Source: Cenococcum geophilum 1.58 (lineage: Eukaryota; Ascomycota; Dothideomycetes; Gloniales; Gloniaceae). From it: a stretch of 64,000 nt of DNA. Under the pieces are notes generated by a model that saw only the letters and a list, made by a program, of their open reading frames with translations, did no database searches and was not told where the DNA came from. Shown here piece after piece: positions 2,482 to 61,810 of the stretch. Numbering within the stretch: the stretch's first letter is position 1; each line of letters begins with the position of its first letter. The stretch covers positions 497,475 through 561,474 of the forward strand of contig KV748250.1 of assembly GCA_001692895.1 (NCBI GenBank). Reading direction: 5' to 3'. The translations under genes and the position numbers were made by a program.

Positions 2482-3472
2482 GTAGTAGTTCTTTAATTAA
2501 CGTCTAATACGGATCCTATCTAGGCCTACGCAGACTACTCTATTATAGGGGGAAAACTTATAATTTATAGGAAGAAAACCCTACAGTTAGGTTAGGGGAG
2601 GAAAAACCCTATAAGCTACCTTAGTAGGATAAAAAACCCCGGTTTACCATGTCCGTCTATAGCGGCGGCCCTACGGGCCTACGGCTACGTCCTATCCTCC
2701 TTAGATGTTCGAACTCCTTAGGAACCACTGCTTCCTTTACTAGGATATATAGTCCTTACCTAATTAATCGCTATACTGTTATTTCCCATATCTTGGCTAT
2801 CCCCTATATACTATCTCTTATTTAACCATTGCTATATACGCTATACCTCCCCCCCACTAAGGCCTATTGAAGGCGTAAGGGGGATTTATCTATAAACTAC
2901 CACTACACTATACTATAAGGCGAGCGGGACGTATATACCTAGGTATCTTTTATACCTAGGCCCCAGTCACTAGGCCCTCGCTAAGAGTTACCACTCCTTA
3001 AGAGGAGATAGGAAAACCGTACGGTGTCGTCCAGGCTGCCAGGTTTTTTCTAGTATTTAATAGTTAATAGCGAGTAACCGCATACTCCGCGGGCGATCGC
3101 CCTAGAGGTTAGGAGGGGCCGTATATTTGCTCATTGCTTATTGCTCGTTCACATTCACTCGTTCGTTAATATAAGAGGTCGTTAATGCTTTCTATTAGGG
3201 GTCAGGGGATGCTATTAAATGCCACGCATCTATGTTAGATCGTATAGGTGCTTAGCAGGGGAACAGTAGTAGCTATATTATAAAAGGGTACCGTCTATAG
3301 TGGTTTTCGAGATCTTACCATCCCATATAAAAACTTTTCACTACGCCCCACAACGCACACAACCACCACCAGGCCCACTAGCACGGCTATACAACGTCTC
3401 TGCGTTGGCTCTAGGTAAGACTAGGTTTGTAGCCGTTACCGTGTACAGGTACAGAGTCCGTTTTCGACAGCC
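2482..3472. mobile_element. Family C element, copy C1 (991 bp)
   Basis: One of three copies (with 44,539-46,092 and 55,831-56,833). The shared part starts at cgtctaatacggatcc and contains recognisable blocks: cagactactc, gcggcggccc, cctaaggcctat-type blocks, ggcgatcgccct and ggaggggccgtatat. The left 770 bp are shared by all three copies. The right 210 bp are shared only with C3 and end at cgacagcc. No long open frame exists on either strand. Long exact duplications of variable length argue for target-primed (non-LTR) integration of a non-autonomous unit; this is inference. Neither end has a poly(A) run, so orientation is unknown. Confidence 0.75.
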
Positions 3473-3486
3473 TTAGTAGATAATTA
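3473..3486. repeat. Right target-site duplication of C1
   Basis: Exact repeat of 2468-2481, starting immediately after the conserved right end cgacagcc of C1. Confidence 0.85.
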
Positions 3487-16818: not shown

Positions 16819-17379
16819 CTAAAGGTATTAGAAGTATAGGTAGATAATAAGCTATAGTAAAGCGTATATATAGTATAAGTAGCCTATAAGGGCTAAGTAT
16901 AGTATATTACTATATATAAGATTACTAATTCTATATAGGGTCTATACTTTTAGAAATTACGCTTACTATATATAGTAGTTATTTAGGCTATTAGAGAAAC
17001 TAAAAAAGGCCCCCCCCTAAATTACTTCTTAAGCTACTCTAAAAGGGTTAAGTAGCCTATCTTTAGAGTATAATAGATAGATATAAGTAAACGCCAATAG
17101 TACTACTTAAGAAGAAAGTAAATATACTTCTTTTATAATTATATAAGAATAGATTCTAACTTAGTACTAAGTAATAAGTAAATTTCCCTATATAAAAGCA
17201 TAGTAAGTAAAGTATATATATTATATAATAAGTAACCTAGTAATTAGTTATAACTATAAACCTAGATTTTTATTAACTAAGGATATAAATACGTTATATA
17301 AAGGCTACCGGTTTTAAAATCTAGCTATTTTTTAAGTAAGAAAAATATAGGGTATAAAAATAACCCCTCTACCTATAGA
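16819..17379. other. Unassigned AT-rich DNA
   Basis: RIP-degraded sequence between the gypsy-B LTR and the Tc1 relic. It includes a C run (16,989-17,021) and no recognised frame. It may contain the 3' end of the Tc1 element, but no terminal inverted repeat was identified. Confidence 0.4.
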
Positions 17380-18709: not shown

Positions 18710-18733
18710 TTTTAGTATATTAATATACTAAAA
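18710..18733. repeat. 24-bp perfect palindrome (dispersed motif)
   Basis: A perfect inverted repeat centred on ttaa, of the form ttttagtatat/atatactaaaa. Close relatives lie at 36,047-36,070, at about 43,738-43,763, and six times in tandem at 37,085-37,270. Confidence 0.7.
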
Positions 18734-19998
18734 GTAGTAAATAGATTTAAAAGTAGTAAGGAAAGTAGTAGTAGAAATAAAAGTAGTAGTAATAGTAGAA
18801 GTAGAAGTAGTAATAAGAATAGTAATATAAGTAGTAGCATTAGTAGTAGGAATAGTAGTAGTAGAAGTAGTAGTATAGGATAGTAGGAATAGTAAAAGTA
18901 GTAGTAAAGGTAGTAGTAAAGGCAGTAAGAGTAGTTATAAGAGTAGTAATAAAAGTAAAAGTAGTAGTAGAGGTAGAAGTAAAATTAATAGTAGTAGAAG
19001 TAGTAATAATAATAGAAGTAAAAGTAATAATAAAAGTAGTAGTAATAGTAGAAGTAATAGTAAAAGTAGAAGTAGAAGTAGAAGTAGAAGTAGAAGTAGA
19101 AGTAGAAGTAGAAGTAGAAGTAGAAGTAGAAGTAGAAGTAAGAGTAGAAGTAGGAATAGAAGTAGGAGTAAAAGTAATAGTAGAAGTAGGAGTAAAAGTA
19201 GTAGTAAAAGTAAAGTAAGAGTAAAAATAGGAGTAGTAGTAAAAGTAGAAGTAGTAGTAAAAGTAGAAGTAGTAGTAAAAGTAAAAGTAAAAGTAAAAGT
19301 AGTAAAAAAAGTAAAAAAAAGTAGTAAAAAAAAGTGGTTTTTTTTATAAAGTAGTTAAAGGGATAAAGAAGTAAAAAGGTATTTTTTTAGTAGAGAAGTA
19401 GTAGTTTAAGTAAAAGTAGTTTTTTTAATAAAAAAAAAAGGTAGTAGTTTAAGTAGTTAAGTAGTTTTAAAAGTAATTTATTTAGTAAAAGGTAGTAATT
19501 TAAGTAGTTTAGTAGTAGTTTTAGTAAAGAAGTATTTATTTTAGTAGTTTAGGTAAAAAGTAGTAGTTTTAGATAGTAGTTTAGTAGTAGTTTTAGTAGC
19601 TAGGAAGTAGTTTAGGGATTTAGTAGTAGTTTTTTAGGTAGTTAAGTAGTTTTAGAAGTAAGAGGTAGTTTTAAAGGTAAAAGGTAGTTTTAGTTTAAGT
19701 AGTTTAGATAAAAGAAGTAATAGTTTAGGTAAAGTTTAATAGTAGTTTAAGTAAAAAGGTAGTTAAAAAAGATAAAGAGGTAGTTTTAAAAGTAGTTTTT
19801 TAGGTAGTAGTTTTAGTAAAAGAAGTGGTTTTAAAAGTAAAAAAAAGGAGAAAAAAGGGTACAAAGTAGTTTTATAGATAGGGAGTAGTTTCTTAAGTAA
19901 GTTTTTTAATTTTAAAGTAGTAGAGGGTAGTTTTAAAAGTTAAAAAAGAGGTTTTTAGGTTAAAAAAAAAGTTAGTTTAGTAGTAGTTTAAGTAGTTT
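18734..19998. repeat. AGT-rich low-complexity tract, left part
   Basis: More than 1.2 kb composed almost only of agt, aga, ttt and aaa words. Positions 19,062-19,140 are a clean (gtagaa)n hexamer run. From about 19.3 kb it shifts to gtagttt/aaagtag words. It continues after the Copia element at 25,906, so both parts were one tract. Confidence 0.85.
19994..19998. repeat. Copia target-site duplication, left (agttt)
   Basis: agttt, repeated at 25,906-25,910 immediately outside the other LTR. Confidence 0.8.
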
Positions 19999-23200: not shown

Positions 23201-25430
23201 AGGGCGCTAGCGAAGAGCTTATCTTATAGATAGCTGTTAAGGCTATTAACGATTCCGCTAGCCCAGATGGGCTCGTACCTACGTTACTAGTTTTCAGCGC
23301 CTACCCTCAAATAACTAATAATTCTCTACTATCTCTATCCGTTATATAATAAGCTAAGGCTATCCGTAAGGCAATAAAGGAGGTGCGCCGTATCTACGCT
23401 ACGCGCTAGGTTAATAACGCACTAAGAATAAGAAACGGTTTAAATACCTTAATAACAATAGATCTACTACTCTAATCTAAAGTATAGGTATAGCGTAAGA
23501 AAGGGGGCTGGTTAGGCCTATATACACTTATCGCTATTAAGGGTTAAACTTATACTCTCTAGATGCCCTATAGACCCACTTAATTCCACTTAACTATTAT
23601 TAAGCCCTACTATAGGGATAATAGTTTTGAGCCTTTATAGGATGCCCTAGAGGATACCCTAGAGGAGAATTACAATTAACGTGCTTTAGAAGGCGACTAT
23701 AATTCTAATACAATTATAGCAGATATACCGCAACTACGACGCGGTAGAGGTCGCCTAAAAGGATTACAAAATCGCTAATATCTTATTGATTTCGAAGAGT
23801 AATTTATTACCACTATTAAGAATAGAGTTAAGTTATTAATGGCCTTTATAATAGCTAAAGAGAAGGCGGACTTTAAGCTCGCAAAACAACTCTAAAAGGA
23901 AGGCCGTATTATAACTCTAGGAGCCCCTTTCTAAGCATCTAATAAGTAGGAGATTAACGGTCTTATTATAAGAGGAGTCTTTAAATTTAAGAAGTATAAC
24001 CCTACTAAGTTTAATGGAGTTCGCATCTTTAAGTTAAGAATAGTTAACGAGATTAAAGGTAAAGCTACTAATACCCTATTTAAGAAGTCGAGACTAGTTA
24101 TTTAATGACGGTAAGGAAGTAATTCTTACGCAATCCCCTACGGTTTAACAAGCTAGTTAGTAAGTTATTATTACGCTAGCTCCCTCCTTAATAAAGAATA
24201 GAATAACGGTTTATTTATAAGATATTACCTAGGCCTATACCTAATTAGAGATATACCTTTAGCGCTTAATATTAGCATACCTTCTAGAGTAAATTTGCTA
24301 CTAATATCCTAAAGATACGATTATAGTTATACTTAAGCCATTATATAGAATCGTAGAGGTAGGAACTTATTAGTAGGCTACCTATAGTAAATACCACAAA
24401 GAGAAGCTTTTAATAATTACTTCTATATTCGACCCCTACTTTCTTATTATAACTATAGGAACTCTATTTAGAATTATTAGCATATAAACTAATAATATAA
24501 TTATCTTAGGAGATAGTTAATTCTTAGCTCTTGAAGAAGATAAGCTAGTAAAGGTAAATCTTATGGCAAAGCTAAAGGAAAGACTTAACTTAATAATACT
24601 ACTACTCTTTAATAGATATATCCTCTCCCTAAATAAGGATTCTATTGCTTTATACCAGAAGGGTTAAGGTAAGAAGATTAATATTATTAATATTAATTCT
24701 CTAAAGCAAGGATACGTAGAGTAACGCGCTCGCGGAGCTTATATTGCTTCTATCTGTTAACGTAAAGCTTCTTTTAATCTCTCTATTGCCGCTTAATACT
24801 AGGAACTAATTAAGGAGGATATTCTTGCCCTAAATAAGCGCCTTTCCTAGTAAATAAACTATTTTAATTAAGGACTACTCTATATACCTATTAACCTTCC
24901 TACTGCTAAGCTCTTTATATTTATTAATGGATCGTTTATAAATAATAAAGATTTTAGCTCCTAGCTAGGATATAAGATTATTATCGCGAACGAATCTACC
25001 GGAGAGAATAACTTTACGGTTTACGGCAATCTTATCTATTAGAGCTTAACTAAGAGCAAGCGCGTCACTTAAAGTATTCTAGCGTTAGAGATATATAGAA
25101 TAGTTAGCGGAGTTAATATAGCAATTGCAATTAGAACTACCCTAAAGATGATTATAGATCGACTTAAACTTCCCGTTATCCCTATAATTGTATATACCGA
25201 CTTATATTCCCCTTATAAGTGTTTAGTTAAGCTTAATACTATAAAAAAGAAGGGCCTTATAATTAATATTATAGTACTTTAGTAATCCTATAAGCGTTAA
25301 GAACTCTTTAAGATTTAATAGATTAATAGCTAAGATAACCTAGCGGATATAATAATAAAGGCAAACCCAAATAAGGCACTAGAGACGTTTGTTAATATAA
25401 ATACTCTACGTATACGAGTTAAAGGTTAGG
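20240..25430 (+). pseudogene. Copia gag-pol polyprotein, RIP-inactivated
   Basis: The gag region runs from about 20.24 kb. Protease is near 22,285-22,320 (LDTRAVGVSI, from DTGA). GAG-pre-integrase follows at 22.62-22.80 kb (RHLTKLELRQLHHRF then paired aromatic/Cys positions YCYYY). The integrase core lies about 22.85-23.35 kb. Linker and RT lie 23.9-24.75 kb, with the catalytic box near 24,488-24,505 reading TNNIIIL. That corresponds to the TDD-type box of this fungal Copia lineage with both Asp changed to Asn. RNase H lies about 24.9-25.4 kb. Stops are almost all TAG/TAA. The very long near-open integrase segment shows the frame clearly. Confidence 0.88.
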
Positions 25431-44115: not shown

Positions 44116-44137
44116 AGTTAGTAGTACATATTAAGGT

Positions 44138-44345
44138 AGGTATTAAGATAAGTATTAAGATAAGTGTCGAAATAAGTATTAAGATAAGTATTAAGGTAAG
44201 TATTAAAATAAGTATTAAGATAAAGATTAAGGTAAGTATTAAGATAAGTATTAAAATAAGTATTAAGGTAAGTGTTAAAATAGTTATTAAAGTAAGTATT
44301 AAGATAAATATTAGGTATTAAAGTAGGTGTTAGTATAGTAATTAT
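44138..44345. repeat. 12-bp minisatellite (aagataagtatt)
   Basis: About 16 tandem copies of aagataagtatt with a/g variation (aaggtaagtatt, aaaataagtatt, aagataagtgtc). Confidence 0.88.
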
Positions 44346-44390
44346 ATAGGTATTAATAATATAAGGGTAATTAAAAGTATATATATATAT

Positions 44391-44486
44391 AACTTATTCC
44401 TATAATCTATTCCTATAATCTATTCCTATAACCTATTCCTATAACCTATTCCTATAACCTATTTCTATAACCTATTTCTATAACTA
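44391..44486. repeat. 13-bp minisatellite (cctattcctataa)
   Basis: About seven tandem copies of cctattcctataa, early units with ct to tt changes. It is separated by about 45 bp from the 12-bp array and sits just before C2. Confidence 0.88.
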
Positions 44487-44524: not shown

Positions 44525-44538
44525 AGGTTACTACTATA
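44525..44538. repeat. Left target-site duplication of C2
   Basis: aggttactactata, identical to 46,093-46,106. Confidence 0.85.
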
Positions 44539-46092
44539 GTAATTCTTGATTAACGTCTGATACGGATCCTATCTAGGCCCACGCAGACTACTCCGTCACA
44601 GGGGGAAAACTTGTAATTTACAGGAAGAAAACCCTGCAGTTTTGGGGAGGAAAAACCCTATGAGCCACCTCAGTAGGATGAAAAACCCCGGTTTGCCATG
44701 TCCGTCCATAGCGGCGGCCCTGCGGGCCTACGGCTACGTCCTGTCCTCCTTAGATGTTCGAACTCCTTGGGAACCACTGCTTCCTTCTCTAGCTTATCCC
44801 AGCTAGGGTTCACTACGTCCTAGCTAGGCCTTGCCGTTCGACTGCTGTACACTTGTGGTTGTATTCCGTATTTTGACCACCCCCTATATGCTATCTCTTG
44901 TTGACTATTGCCATATACGCCATGCCTTCCCCCCCCTAAGGCCTATCAAAGGCGTAAGGGGGATTCATCCATAAACTACCACTATACCAAAAGGCGAGCG
45001 GGACGTGTATGCCTGAGTATCTTTTGTGCCTAGGCCCCAGTCACTAGGCCCTCGCCAAGGGTCACCACTCCTTGAGAGGAGACAGGAAAACCGTACGGTA
45101 TTGTCCAGGCTGCCAGGTATTTGATAGTTGATGGCGAGTGACCGCATGCTCCGCGGGCGATCGCCCTGGGGGTTAGGAGGGGCCGTATATTTGCTCGTTG
45201 CTCGTTCGTTCGCAATCGCTCGTTCGTCGACGTGAGAGGTCGTCGATGCTCTCTACTGGGGCAGGTAGTTATATATTAGCTAGTAATACAGTAGAGTTCA
45301 ACATGCCTGCTTATCCAGGCCTCTACCCCAGTTTTCTAGTGCTTTGGTCCCAAACTATAAGCAGTTGGCTGCCACCACCAATTGCGGGGAATTTCACCAG
45401 TTCTTTTGGATATCTTATAACGGTATTACCCGAGTACCAGTCTACCCCCCAGTAGTCTGTATAAGAGTTTCCTCCTAGAGTTGGTACGCTTTCGCACGGC
45501 TTGGGAGCCTTCCATAGCCTCTAGTTTCACGCCTTTATTATTATTTCCGCCGGCGCGGGCATAAGCTGCCGTTTCCAGGGGTTGTAACTCCCATCTTCGC
45601 GCCTACTGACGTAATCCTACGGAGGCGTCGTAGCTGCATCCTGCAATATAGTTGGGTATACCTTCTACGGACGAGGCCGAGCCACTGCCTCTCCCGCCTG
45701 AGTAACTCCTATTTGCTCCTTAAGTATATCTCACCGGCGAGCCGCCCTAGAGGCGAACGGTTCCGTCTGTTGATATACCGACACGCGCATCCGTTCTCTC
45801 AAGCCACGTAGTAGTCTCTCCGGCCAGGGTGTGATCCTGCCTGCCTACCAGGTGCACCAAAGGTCAGAGCCCAGTTAAGGGATGAGGTCCTTGGAGCCAG
45901 CAGTGGCTACTATATACTACGCCCCGCGGGAAGCCAGTAGTAATATAGGGGCGCAACACCCTATATACTACTAGTTCCCGTTTCGCGTTGCCTGTAAGAG
46001 TCTCCTTATGACAGGCCGACCGTGTCTTGCAGGAGGGGGGCCGTAGAGACCAGGTCCCGCACCGGGCGACCTGCTCTCCCCCCTCCTACTAA
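44539..46092. mobile_element. Family C element, copy C2 (1,554 bp), little RIP
   Basis: The left ~720 bp match C1 and C3; the right ~830 bp (from about 45,262) are unique in the window. Exact 14-bp duplications bracket the whole, so both parts moved as one unit. It is GC-richer and keeps CA/TG, hence young or RIP-escaped. Near the right end a strong hairpin is present at 46,049-46,073 (caggtcccg / cgggcgacctg), followed by C-rich sequence and ctactaa. Short open frames on both strands (44,965-45,147, 45,030-45,215, 45,198-45,455) overlap each other and resemble no protein I know. Probably a non-coding, non-autonomous retroelement. Confidence 0.78.
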
Positions 46093-46106
46093 AGGTTACT
46101 ACTATA
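46093..46106. repeat. Right target-site duplication of C2
   Basis: aggttactactata, identical to 44,525-44,538. Confidence 0.85.
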
Positions 46107-55646: not shown

Positions 55647-55830
55647 AACGGCTAAAGGAAAGCTATACTAACTTATATAAAAGGGATTAGCAATAGATTA
55701 TATAACATAGTTCTAAATATTAGTAGCGCAGACTAAATAAAACTAAGGGGCGTTAATAGCATAATATTACCAAGGCCTAAAGAATAAAGTATAATAAACT
55801 ATAATACTAATAGATGGCTTAGATAATATA
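55647..55830 (+). pseudogene. Gypsy A3 gag, middle fragment
   Basis: It begins with the duplicated aacgg and continues the A3 gag, matching A1 at about 28.98-29.14 kb. It is cut at 55,830 by the insertion of C3. Confidence 0.75.
55815..55830. repeat. Left target-site duplication of C3
   Basis: tggcttagataatata (16 bp), identical to 56,834-56,849. Confidence 0.88.
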
Positions 55831-56833
55831 TTAGATTTGTTTATTGCTTAACGTCTAATACGGATCCTATATGGCCCACGCAGACTACTTCGTATATAGG
55901 GGAAACTTATAAATTTATAAGAAGAAAACCCCTAATATATTAGAGAAGGAAAAACCCTATAAGCCACCTTAGTAGGATAAAAAACCCCAAATTGCCATGC
56001 CTGCACAAGCAGCGGCCCTACGGGCCTACAGCTCGTCCTCCTCCTTAGGAACTACTACTTCCTTCTTTAGCTTATCCAAAGCTAGGGTTCACTACGTCCT
56101 AGCTAGGCCTTGCCAATCGATTGCTGTACGCTTATAGTTGTGCCCTGTATCTTAACTACCCCCTATATACTATCTCTTGTTAACCATTACTATATACGCT
56201 ATACCTTCCCCCCCCCTAAGGCCTATCGAAGGCGTAAGGGGGATTTATCCGTTCTACTATCCTAAAACTAAAAGACAAAAGCGGGATGTATGTATGTGTA
56301 TCTGGGTATCTTTTATGCCTAGGCCCCAGTTACTAGGCCCTCTCTAAGGGCACTACTCCGTTAAGAGGAGATAAGGAAAACCGTACGGGGTTATCTAGCT
56401 ACCGCTTTCAGTAGTATTATAGCAGTACGGCGAGTGACCGCATGCTCTGCGGGCGATCGCCCTAGGGGTTAGGAGGGGCCGTATATTTGCTCGTTCGTTC
56501 GTTTATTCGCGTTTACTTGTTCGTTAATATAAGGTCATTAATACTTTCTACTAGGGGACGGGGGATAATATCGAATACTATGCATCCATGTTAGATCGTA
56601 CAGGTGCCCTAGATAGGAGAATGTAGTAGTCGTCGTACTATAGAGAGCCAACAGTAGTGGTTTTCAAGATCTCACCATCTGAAAATTTTTCACCACCGCC
56701 CTTAACGCCTATAACCACCACAGGTCCTGTCCGCACGCTATGCGACGTCTCTACGTTAGCTCTGGATCTGAACTTCGAAGACCAGGTTCGTAGCCGTTAC
56801 CACGTACAGGTGCAGAGTCCGATTTCGACGGCC
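55831..56833. mobile_element. Family C element, copy C3 (1,003 bp)
   Basis: Collinear with C1 over its whole length, including the right end cgacggcc, and with C2 over the left part. It is inserted in the gag of gypsy A3. It is partly RIP-mutated, intermediate between C1 and C2. The short frame at 56,657-56,845 starts with GTG and runs into the flank, so it is not taken as a gene. Confidence 0.78.
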
Positions 56834-56849
56834 TGGCTTAGATAATATA
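56834..56849. repeat. Right target-site duplication of C3
   Basis: tggcttagataatata, identical to 55,815-55,830. Confidence 0.88.
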
Positions 56850-59296: not shown

Positions 59297-61810
59297 TTAA
59301 TTGCCTGCGCTCCAATTCTTTATACCCTATTTATTATAGCTATAGCGGAACCCCTATAGGCATGCATCCAGATATTTAAGGCGTAGTCTACTACCGGCGC
59401 TACCGTTACCCCAAATAGCTGTCTTGCGGTTAAGGGGGATACTATCCGGAGTCTCTTTAGTGCTATAGCTGCGATAAGGCCCTTAGTGGCTGCTTTTGCG
59501 ACGTGTTGCTTATACTAAAGCTCCGCATCTATAACCACCCCTAGGATCTTAGCTATATGCCCTAGTATAACTATTTTTCCTTTAATTATAAACGGGGTAG
59601 TATTAGTCCGGTCTGCGTTTCTAGTAAAGTGTACTAGCATAGTCTTTTCACCTTTAAACGTTATGCCGCTTCGTTTCTCCCAGTTTATTGCTCTATTAAT
59701 AATAGCCTAAATACCTTCGCAGTTTGCTACTACTAATAGTCCTATAATCTATACATTATAGTCGTCTATAAACGCCATTAAGCCTTTATTTACGTTTAGT
59801 TAGTATTAAACTAGGTTAGCGTTAAAAAAGAGGAATAGTATTAGTAAGAGCGGCGATCCTTGCGGTAGTCCTACTTATAGTAACTATTACTAGTTAGAGG
59901 TATAACCGTTAACTAAGATAGTCGCCGTACGATTAGAGCAGAATGCATTAATCTACCGCACTAGCACTGGCGGTATACCTCTTGCCGTAAGCCTCTATAA
60001 TAGCCTCTCTTTATATACTCCGTTATATATACCCTTTACGTTAAAGCTAATAAGGCTAAGTACCTTCTTAGACCTCTACGCGTTGTAGATATATTCTTGT
60101 AGTAGCAGCAGCGCCTATTTAGTAGAGCGCTTCTTCCTTACCCTAAAGTAATTTATAGGCAGTAGTCTAAAGGTCTCTACCGCGTGCGATATTCTCTTAG
60201 TAACTATAGACTCTAGTACCTTACCTAGTGTAGATAGCAGAGAAATAGGCCTCCATACCCTTGCCTTCGTATAGTCTCCTTTATTCGGCTTCTTAAGCGG
60301 TATAATCTTAGCATTTCTCTATTAGTTAGGAAGGTCGCCCTTATCTAGTAAGGTCTGAAAGAGGAGCAGGACCCTATCTTTTATTACCGGCCATATCTAC
60401 CTCTACACCATCGCTAGTAGGCCGTCGTCCCCTGGCGCTTTCTATGGCTTTACCGCAAATATCTTCCGTTCCACCTCTTCCATTATAAGACGTGACATTA
60501 GTATTAGCGTTCGTTAAGGCCGTGGGCCCTCGTCCTCTATTCCTGCTAGCAGTAGGGGAAAGAATATAGTTAACAGCTCCGCTGCTTGCTTATCTTTACC
60601 TTCTATAGTAGATCCATTTATCCTTACTAACGGTAGTATCCTATTAAACGCTAAGTTGCCACTTAGGTTAAGGTATTTTGCTACTTACTAAATATTTGCG
60701 TTATCGGCCAGGAAGTCGTTCCAATGTGTCCTTTTCTATTTCCGTATTATATTATAGTATTCCTTTAAGGCCTCCTTTACTTATTACTTTAGTTCTAGTA
60801 ATATCTAACCCGCTTAGCGTTAGTTCTTTACCCGGTTCCTCTAGTAAGTATATACCCAGCAGAGCTTTATAAGGTCTATTATCCACTACCTTTTTATATA
60901 TAGTAATGGTTTAGCTTTTAAAGTTAATGCGTAGACTACCTCTAGCACTACATCTATAAGCCGGTCTGTTTGCTACTATACTCTACCGCCTACTAGGATA
61001 ATACAGAGGGCGGTGGCAATCCTATTCCTAATTTCATTCTATAGTACGTTCTTAAAGAGCATTCTCTATTCTATAGCGCGTTTAGGGACCGCAATATCGA
61101 ATATTATCTCAATTGCCCTATAATTAGATCCGTGTTCTATCCTATATACTATACACTTTACTACTATAGAAGCTAGCTCGTCTAATGCTAGGATTAGGTT
61201 AATTGTTGTCTCGCAGTTACCGTTTTACTATATTTTCGTACCCCTAGGTAGCAGGCTATATAGGGAGTAATCTCCTATAAGATTAATAATTAGGTTAGCT
61301 TCTCCCTATTTCGTTAGCGAGACGTTATTTCCTCCCTATAGCTAATTATGCCGATTAAAGTCTCCTATAAGTATTATATCGGTTTATATACCTATCTTAT
61401 TCTATATTTCCTAGATTAGTTAGTATAGTTTACCGGTTATATCCTATAGTGCCTCTATATTCTTTCCCTTAATATATACTAATACTACTAGTACTAATTA
61501 GTCGGGAAGGCGCAGCACCGCCGCGGTAAGGTCTGCCGATTATACTAGCACCTATTCGGCCTTAATATCTTTTTAAATCCATAACATGCTCCGTACCGCC
61601 TACCTCTCTTTATACTAGACTATAGGTATTACCTTAGTCCAATTTAAGTGTCCTATAGGGACTATTACTACTATATCGTCCGCTTTCTATACGTATAGCT
61701 CTAATATTGCTAACACTCCAAAGTCTTTTAGTTATTTATCGTTTATTAGGCTCTGCTATACAGCACTTTGCTTTTAGATATTTAATTAAAGTACCTAAAG
61801 TATCTTATAC
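59297..61810 (-). pseudogene. Tad-like LINE ORF2: endonuclease and reverse transcriptase, 3' end missing
   Basis: On the minus strand the apurinic-type endonuclease lies about 61.80-61.10 kb, with LIGDFNRH near 61.37 kb and INLILA-type catalytic segments. The RT lies about 60.45-59.55 kb, with the box AFIDDYNV at 59,757-59,785 keeping both Asp. The downstream part reads LRAIAAIALKRLRIV and GVTVAPVVDYALNIWMHAY. The RNase H domain normally following in Tad elements is absent because the sequence ends at 59,297. It would prime reverse transcription on nicked target DNA. RIP stops occur but are less dense than in the gypsy copies. The plus-strand frame 60,678-60,872 is a shadow. Confidence 0.88.

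Follow-up and report, generated by a model that had tools for sequence, protein, structure and literature searches.

The closest described counterparts of the elements reported here are retroelements of Magnaporthe, Drosophila and trypanosomatids. The MINEs of Magnaporthe (WEIRD-MGL and WEIRD-MgSINE) consist of a non-coding RNA joined by its 3′ end to a 5′-truncated LINE or SINE; they have direct repeats of 10-20 bp and show double jumps, and the 3′ end of the SINE resembles that of the LINE (PMC2104539). In Drosophila, R2 and the R2/R1 hybrid SIDEs carry a 5′ HDV-like ribozyme, combined in the SIDEs with the 3′ end of a different LINE, by which they are mobilised, and the SIDEs display 14-bp duplications and template jumps (PMC3414825). 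For fungi, 230 HDV-class ribozymes from 26 species have been recorded, their gene associations varying; two examples were shown to cleave, and neither 'transpos' nor 'repeat' occurs in that text (PMC5640933). One fungal HDV-like ribozyme is mentioned in PMC3774820, and fungi are not mentioned in the accessible parts of PMC7761336 and PMC4908430. Within the open-licence literature searched, as far as the accessible portions of those texts extend, no HDV-like ribozyme joined to a fungal SINE or a WEIRD-like RNA was found.

The DNA analysed here (the window) is a stretch of 64,000 nucleotides from the ascomycete Cenococcum geophilum 1.58 that contains three copies of a repeat family, C, each reported in the original prediction to lie between exact direct repeats. 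All three repeats are present, at 14, 14 and 16 bp for C1, C2 and C3. The grouping of the three copies as one family holds for C1 and C3, which are ordinary C elements; C2 is a chimera of which only positions 44539-45261 are C, the remainder belonging to a second non-coding family, W. The features are as follows.

2468-2481, unstranded: C1 target duplication, sense 3′ side (14 bp, exact)
2482-3472, minus strand: C1, an ordinary C element of ~1 kb (running from its 5′ end, 3472, to its 3′ end, 2482)
3398-3472, minus strand: C1 HDV-like head, decayed, with P4 shortened (strict descriptor not satisfied)
3473-3486, unstranded: C1 target duplication, sense 5′ side (14 bp, identical to 2468-2481)
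44525-44538, unstranded: C2 target duplication, sense 3′ side (14 bp, exact)
44539-46092, minus strand: C2, a W-C chimera, one integrated unit
44539-45261, minus strand: C part of C2, a 5′-truncated C of 723 nt, ribozyme head missing
44540-44594, minus strand: 3′ tail of C2, common to LINE-1; homologous tails terminate C1 and C3
45262-46092, minus strand: W part of C2, covering W nt 1004-1834 (the last 831 nt), 5′-truncated and without ribozyme
46093-46106, unstranded: C2 target duplication, sense 5′ side (14 bp, identical to 44525-44538)
55815-55830, unstranded: C3 target duplication, sense 3′ side (16 bp, exact)
55831-56833, minus strand: C3, an ordinary C element (3′ end at 55831)
56749-56833, minus strand: C3 HDV-like head, lacking one position of P2 (strict descriptor not satisfied)
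56834-56849, unstranded: C3 target duplication, sense 5′ side (16 bp, identical to 55815-55830)

As had been predicted, C contains no long coding frame: stop-to-stop frames of at least 150 aa occur only twice in the window, both times within a simple repeat at 18.8-19.3 kb. This repeat is an (AAGTAG)n-type tract of ~570 bp with strong GC skew (18732-19302). Elsewhere in the window there are two tandem arrays within a few dozen bp of the C2 duplication (44129-44313 and 44388-44484, with units of 12 and 13 bp), a LINE-1 fragment of ~72% identity (16819-17145, plus strand), and a tRNA-Asn(att) of 100 nt called by ARAGORN in AT-rich DNA, which is probably spurious (23257-23356, minus strand).

Further copies were sought in the host genome (177,193,698 bases in 162 contigs), where loci carry L numbers; the searches scored approximately the best 40 of 1244, 798, 493, 679, 853 and 358 candidates, so that the resulting counts are lower bounds and are biased towards well-preserved copies. 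Among 29 full-length C copies (27 from genome loci together with C1 and C3), 28 have exact duplications of 12-16 bp (mode 14) abutting both ends, compared with none of 812 mismatched 5′/3′ flank pairs reaching even 11 bp, which gives, across many copies, the consistent ends and long duplications that the original prediction had named as its check. This count omits L014, L034 and L007/L027 (5′ match too short: truncated or chimeric), C2, and the additional copy that L012 carries in opposite orientation. The sole copy without an abutting duplication, L050, is itself chimeric (W-C), and its 14-bp duplication lies beyond the W part. The duplications begin with T in 27 of 28 cases, followed by A in 26 of 28. 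L034 is a truncated C that retains the first 574 nt from the forward-strand left end and then meets a 15-bp duplication. Since truncations affect the forward-strand 3′ side and the tail shared with LINE-1 lies at the forward-strand 5′ side, the sense strand of C is the minus strand, a point that the original prediction had missed. In most copies the 3′ end carries a few TAC or TTA triplets in a row, and the predicted lack of poly(A) applies to these copies and not to L061, which ends in a run of A. Subfamilies of C vary at this end (L004, L008, L012, L053, L060 and L061), with (TTA)n in some, (TAC)n in most, and ACTACT in L060.

The duplications, the constant 3′ ends and the 5′ truncations together show that C inserts by target-primed reverse transcription (TPRT), the mode of integration originally proposed. 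A DNA transposon or LTR origin was considered and rejected, because duplication length varies and truncation is one-sided. C is therefore a non-coding, non-autonomous non-LTR retroelement, SINE-like, of ~1 kb and with its sense on the minus strand. It shows no sign of the tRNA-, 5S- or 7SL-derived head, with its Pol III promoter, of a classical SINE: no tRNA-like or 5S-like head was detected by ARAGORN on the window or by cmscan of the window and L010, and no Rfam family matched the window at its gathering score.

A resident LINE, LINE-1, supplies the counterpart of the C 3′ end. Pieces of LINE-1 found downstream of W overlap into an element of ~5.5 kb (a length inferred from the overlaps) and match RVT_1 (E 5.3e-18 and 2.2e-10) and, below the Pfam cut-off of 27.4 bits, Exo_endo_phos_2 (23.9 bits, E 3.9e-5); no solved structure matched a 93-aa reverse transcriptase (RT) piece. 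The last ~55 nt of LINE-1 align with the last ~55 nt of C, and a five-pair stem in this shared tail has C-G in LINE-1 where C has U-A, so that both sides of the pair differ. From the shared tail, LINE-1 is likely the source of the RT that mobilises C. The resemblance stops at the 3′ end, and no coding autonomous element with the same termini as C and fixed-length duplications was encountered. Three LINE-1 copies (L067-L069) have a common 5′ end that differs from those of W and C and in which no ribozyme match turned up. No target duplication was found for three LINE-1 copies, one of which showed no 3′ tail in the stretch examined. The search for a LINE that could have donated the ribozyme head of C, in which the LINE-1 5′ end was the one compared, yielded none. 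A second family, LINE-2, is represented by three linked pieces only; part of one of these aligns with LINE-1 at ~64% identity. RNase H was considered for the piece following W in L002 and was rejected for want of Pfam support.

The 5′ ends of both C and W can be drawn as an HDV-like ribozyme fold, the parts of which have conventional names (P1 to P4, P1.1, L3 and J4/2); in HDV ribozymes the J4/2 cytosine has a catalytic role. Complete W heads form P1 (GCCCGCG/CGCGGGU), P2 (CUGCAC/GUGCAG), P3 (GCG/CGC), a 7-nt L3, a 10-pair P4 and J4/2 of GCUAA; C heads form P1 (GGCCGUC/GACGGCU), P2 (CUCUGC/GCAGAG), P3 (ACC/GGU), a 7-nt L3, P4 and J4/2 of GCCAA or GCUAA. Both families thus have the nested double pseudoknot of P1, P2, P3 and P4 with a 7-nt L3 and a C in J4/2, and in both the first pair is G.U and P2 adjoins P3. 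A two-pair P1.1 is also present (GU/AC in C, CC/GG in W), although it proves little by itself.

Database scores for this fold are low, all Rfam HDV scores for C and W lying under the gathering thresholds. In L002, cmscan (E-value mode) placed HDV_ribozyme at 496-589 with 29.2 bits (E 0.19, gathering 50), model position 3 coinciding with W nt 1, and L056 matched in the same register (28.3 bits, E 4.6), the only match when another 16 W loci, 11 of them having a whole W head, were scanned jointly. With the C head of L010 taken alone, HDV-F-prausnitzii matched at 14.2 bits (E 1.5, gathering 44), the match beginning at C nt 1; scanned in full, L010 yielded no HDV match, and a genome search with RF00094 returned nothing at E<=10 among the best 86 of 983 candidates scored. 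For the bodies of C and W, Rfam and cmscan offered nothing convincing as a known RNA family. A flank of L005 (212-470, plus strand) matched MIR7533 with 52.4 bits (E 1.5e-07), the gathering score of 230 being far above this.

Support for the fold was sought within each family and between the two. In the set of 35 distinct C heads, pairing extends to 96.5% of cells, a value matched by none of 500 shuffles and by no slid structure (at most 40.8%); the covariation score and the number of cells in which both sides have changed likewise exceed all 500 shuffles. Two other covariation measures do not beat the shuffles (66/500 for pairs with a two-sided change and 336/500 for pair types), and one C pair, 51-71, is unpaired in 11 of the 35 heads. 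For 11 distinct W heads, 97.9% of cells pair, which 26 of 500 shuffles reach. The copies are marked by RIP-like mutation (when C2 is compared with other copies, 1684 of 2040 substitutions are C>T or G>A, and 1090 of these 1684 lie in CpA/TpG context), and since such mutation can mimic a change from G-C to A-U, weight is placed on the test between families. A structure model of 37 C heads with P2 left out (R1) and one of 12 W heads (R3) were each applied to the other family, with E-values that are rough owing to short calibration. With default filters, R1 recovered 13 of 16 complete W starts in 154 kb (E 5e-4 to 7.5e-3), all exactly at W nt 1, the next match having E 0.94 when the training members C1 and C3 are set aside; with filters off it recovered the remaining three and two more W starts (E 2e-4 to 0.08), for a total of 18/18. 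Reciprocally, R3 recovered 20/20 C starts (E 1e-6 to 4e-3) once filters were switched off, and 1 of 40 under default filters. A sequence-only model of those C heads recovered no W start, its only match being a 22-nt stretch elsewhere in L073 (E 0.016). A strict descriptor, drafted once the folds had been seen, is satisfied at nt 1 by 12 of 18 W heads and 9 of 37 C heads, and its background is 4 in 128,000 window positions and 0 in 110,040 shuffled positions.

These results bear on the possibility that C is an ordinary SINE or a deleted LINE derivative with a LINE-1 tail, in which the HDV-like fold is a relic or a coincidence and the 5′ end is simply a promoter start. The sub-threshold Rfam scores, the empty RF00094 search and the confounding of covariation by RIP count in its favour. 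The reciprocal recovery of nt 1 of the other family by structure models where sequence alone fails, the low descriptor background and the absence of a tRNA-like or 5S-like head argue against it, and this explanation is considered unlikely. In both C and W, nt 1 of the element is also the first position of an HDV-like ribozyme fold, and self-cleavage may set the 5′ end of each. In build, C is nearest to the R2/R1 hybrid SIDEs in having an HDV-like head and the tail of another LINE, differing in that the SIDEs reside in rDNA and derive their ribozyme from R2, whereas C is dispersed and has a body of ~1 kb (PMC3414825). It also resembles trypanosomatid NARTc, RIME and SIDER, which are short and non-autonomous with a 5′ HDV-like ribozyme; there, however, the LINE itself bears the head (Pr77), whereas LINE-1 here is without one (PMC4035085).

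The chimeric copy C2 introduces W. It is composed of 831 nt of W joined to a 5′-truncated C, with a single 14-bp duplication around both; that is, a non-coding RNA with a constant 3′ end is joined to a 5′-truncated LINE or SINE within one duplication, which is the structure of a MINE. The W repeat of C2 was scored at 40 places (the best 40 of 493 candidates). In most of the other copies W extends sense-5′ of the C2 portion, and in 12 of 29 it has a sharp start ~1003 nt further, giving a full length of 1834 nt that is complete in those 12 copies; W is frequently 5′-truncated, and a subfamily of 78-82% identity is present. The 3′ end of W (...AACTACCTG) is constant, and the sequence downstream of it differs by locus: of 36 W loci, 20 have LINE-1 as partner, eight have C (L007 via a second W piece) and three have LINE-2, with none assigned in five. 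The joints fall at scattered positions within LINE-1, C and LINE-2, as they do where WEIRD meets MGL in the Magnaporthe MINEs. A solo W insertion was found in none of 21 copies tested, the longest shared word being 8 nt. The window holds a further stretch (59300-59429, minus strand) that matches, at 92%, what lies after W in L002, a third W partner.

The joints themselves are informative as to how the chimeras arose. The first base past the W joint is C in 22 of 29 cases, compared with 21% C in those sequences, an excess that would follow from annealing of a G-terminated cDNA to the acceptor RNA. A duplication occurs at W's own 5′ break at 9 of 14 loci (including L054, where the break belongs to the second W piece and is matched within 3 nt) and was not found at L046, L049, L062, L063 and L066; further duplications at the W break are found at L004 and at L071, the latter the only one of six loci in a separate set. 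In L007, L054 and L063, two tandem W pieces precede the partner, which suggests successive jumps onto the W 3′ end. Nested insertions are frequent in repeat-rich DNA, and such tandem pieces could be taken to favour a reading of C2 as one repeat inside another, with no chimera before integration. A single duplication nevertheless brackets the whole of C2 with no C remainder beyond it, the W 3′ end is constant across many partners, and duplications lie at W's own 5′ break, all of which make nesting highly improbable.

Two other interpretations concern the nature of W. That W is the 5′ UTR of LINE-1, fused by internal deletion or splicing within one RNA, would suit both its ribozyme fold, a 5′ ribozyme being typical of LINE 5′ ends, and the predominance of W-LINE-1 fusions (20/36). 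The different, ribozyme-free 5′ end shared by L067-L069 speaks against this, as do the fusions of W to C and LINE-2, and no splice-acceptor (AG) rule ahead of the W joints was found in uninterrupted partners, for which reason splicing of W onto LINE-1 was rejected; this interpretation is very unlikely, if marginally less so than nesting. No more probable than nesting is the suggestion that a LINE RT captured W as one linear unit of a self-cleaving and perhaps circular RNA replicon, which would account for its fixed ends, 5′ ribozyme fold, length of ~1.8 kb and lack of any stop-to-stop frame longer than 97 aa in L002. In the W of L002, however, neither the descriptor nor cmscan found a second ribozyme on either strand, and W is not rod-like, with 5 pairs spanning >900 nt, so a rod-like circular RNA was rejected.

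Like the MINEs, the W-C and W-LINE chimeras combine a non-coding RNA with a truncated retroelement, and W can be likened to WEIRD by its description. The differences are that W measures 1834 nt, compared with 1113 for WEIRD, and is itself frequently 5′-truncated; that the partners of W are two LINE families and C; and that an HDV-like head is present here, whereas the word 'ribozyme' is absent from the text on MINEs (PMC2104539).

Taken as a whole, the preferred explanation, given a probability of roughly 80%, is that C is a ribozyme-headed non-LTR element borrowing the machinery of LINE-1, and that C2 is a template-jump chimera with W. An HDV-like self-cleaving ribozyme would free the 5′ end of the C RNA, whose last ~55 nt and short triplet run copy the 3′ end of the resident LINE-1. 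The LINE-1 endonuclease and RT would then nick AT-rich targets, prime on the C 3′ end and insert the cDNA, creating the duplications of 12-16 bp. In the formation of C2, the RT would have quit the C RNA partway, jumped to the W 3′ end and copied 831 nt, both parts integrating as one; such jumps onto the W 3′ end presumably recur, from LINE-1, C and LINE-2 alike, and RIP-type mutation would afterwards decay the copies. The LINE partner and the 5′ HDV-like fold of C had both been missed by the original prediction, which is partly supported overall.

The folds of C and W belong to the HDV class, as do the fungal variants described previously, which as a rule show C-G where cleavage occurs, carry a loop E within P4 and separate P2 from P3 by an extra nucleotide; C and W, unlike these, have G.U and P2 beside P3 (PMC5640933). 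A tentative generalisation, at present rather doubtful, is that fungal HDV-like ribozymes largely serve to process the 5′ ends of WEIRD-like RNAs and of non-autonomous retroelements dispersed in the genome, for which a ribozyme-made 5′ end aids life as passengers of a LINE RT, and that WEIRD itself is ribozyme-headed. The preferred explanation, if it holds, would give a concrete role to fungal HDV-like ribozymes, so far listed with variable gene associations, and would account for the fixed 5′ end of dispersed non-coding elements. It would also offer a handle on the nature of WEIRD-type RNAs, in a genome where MINE-like fusion occurs on a larger scale, with 31 of the 36 W loci examined joined to an identified retroelement.
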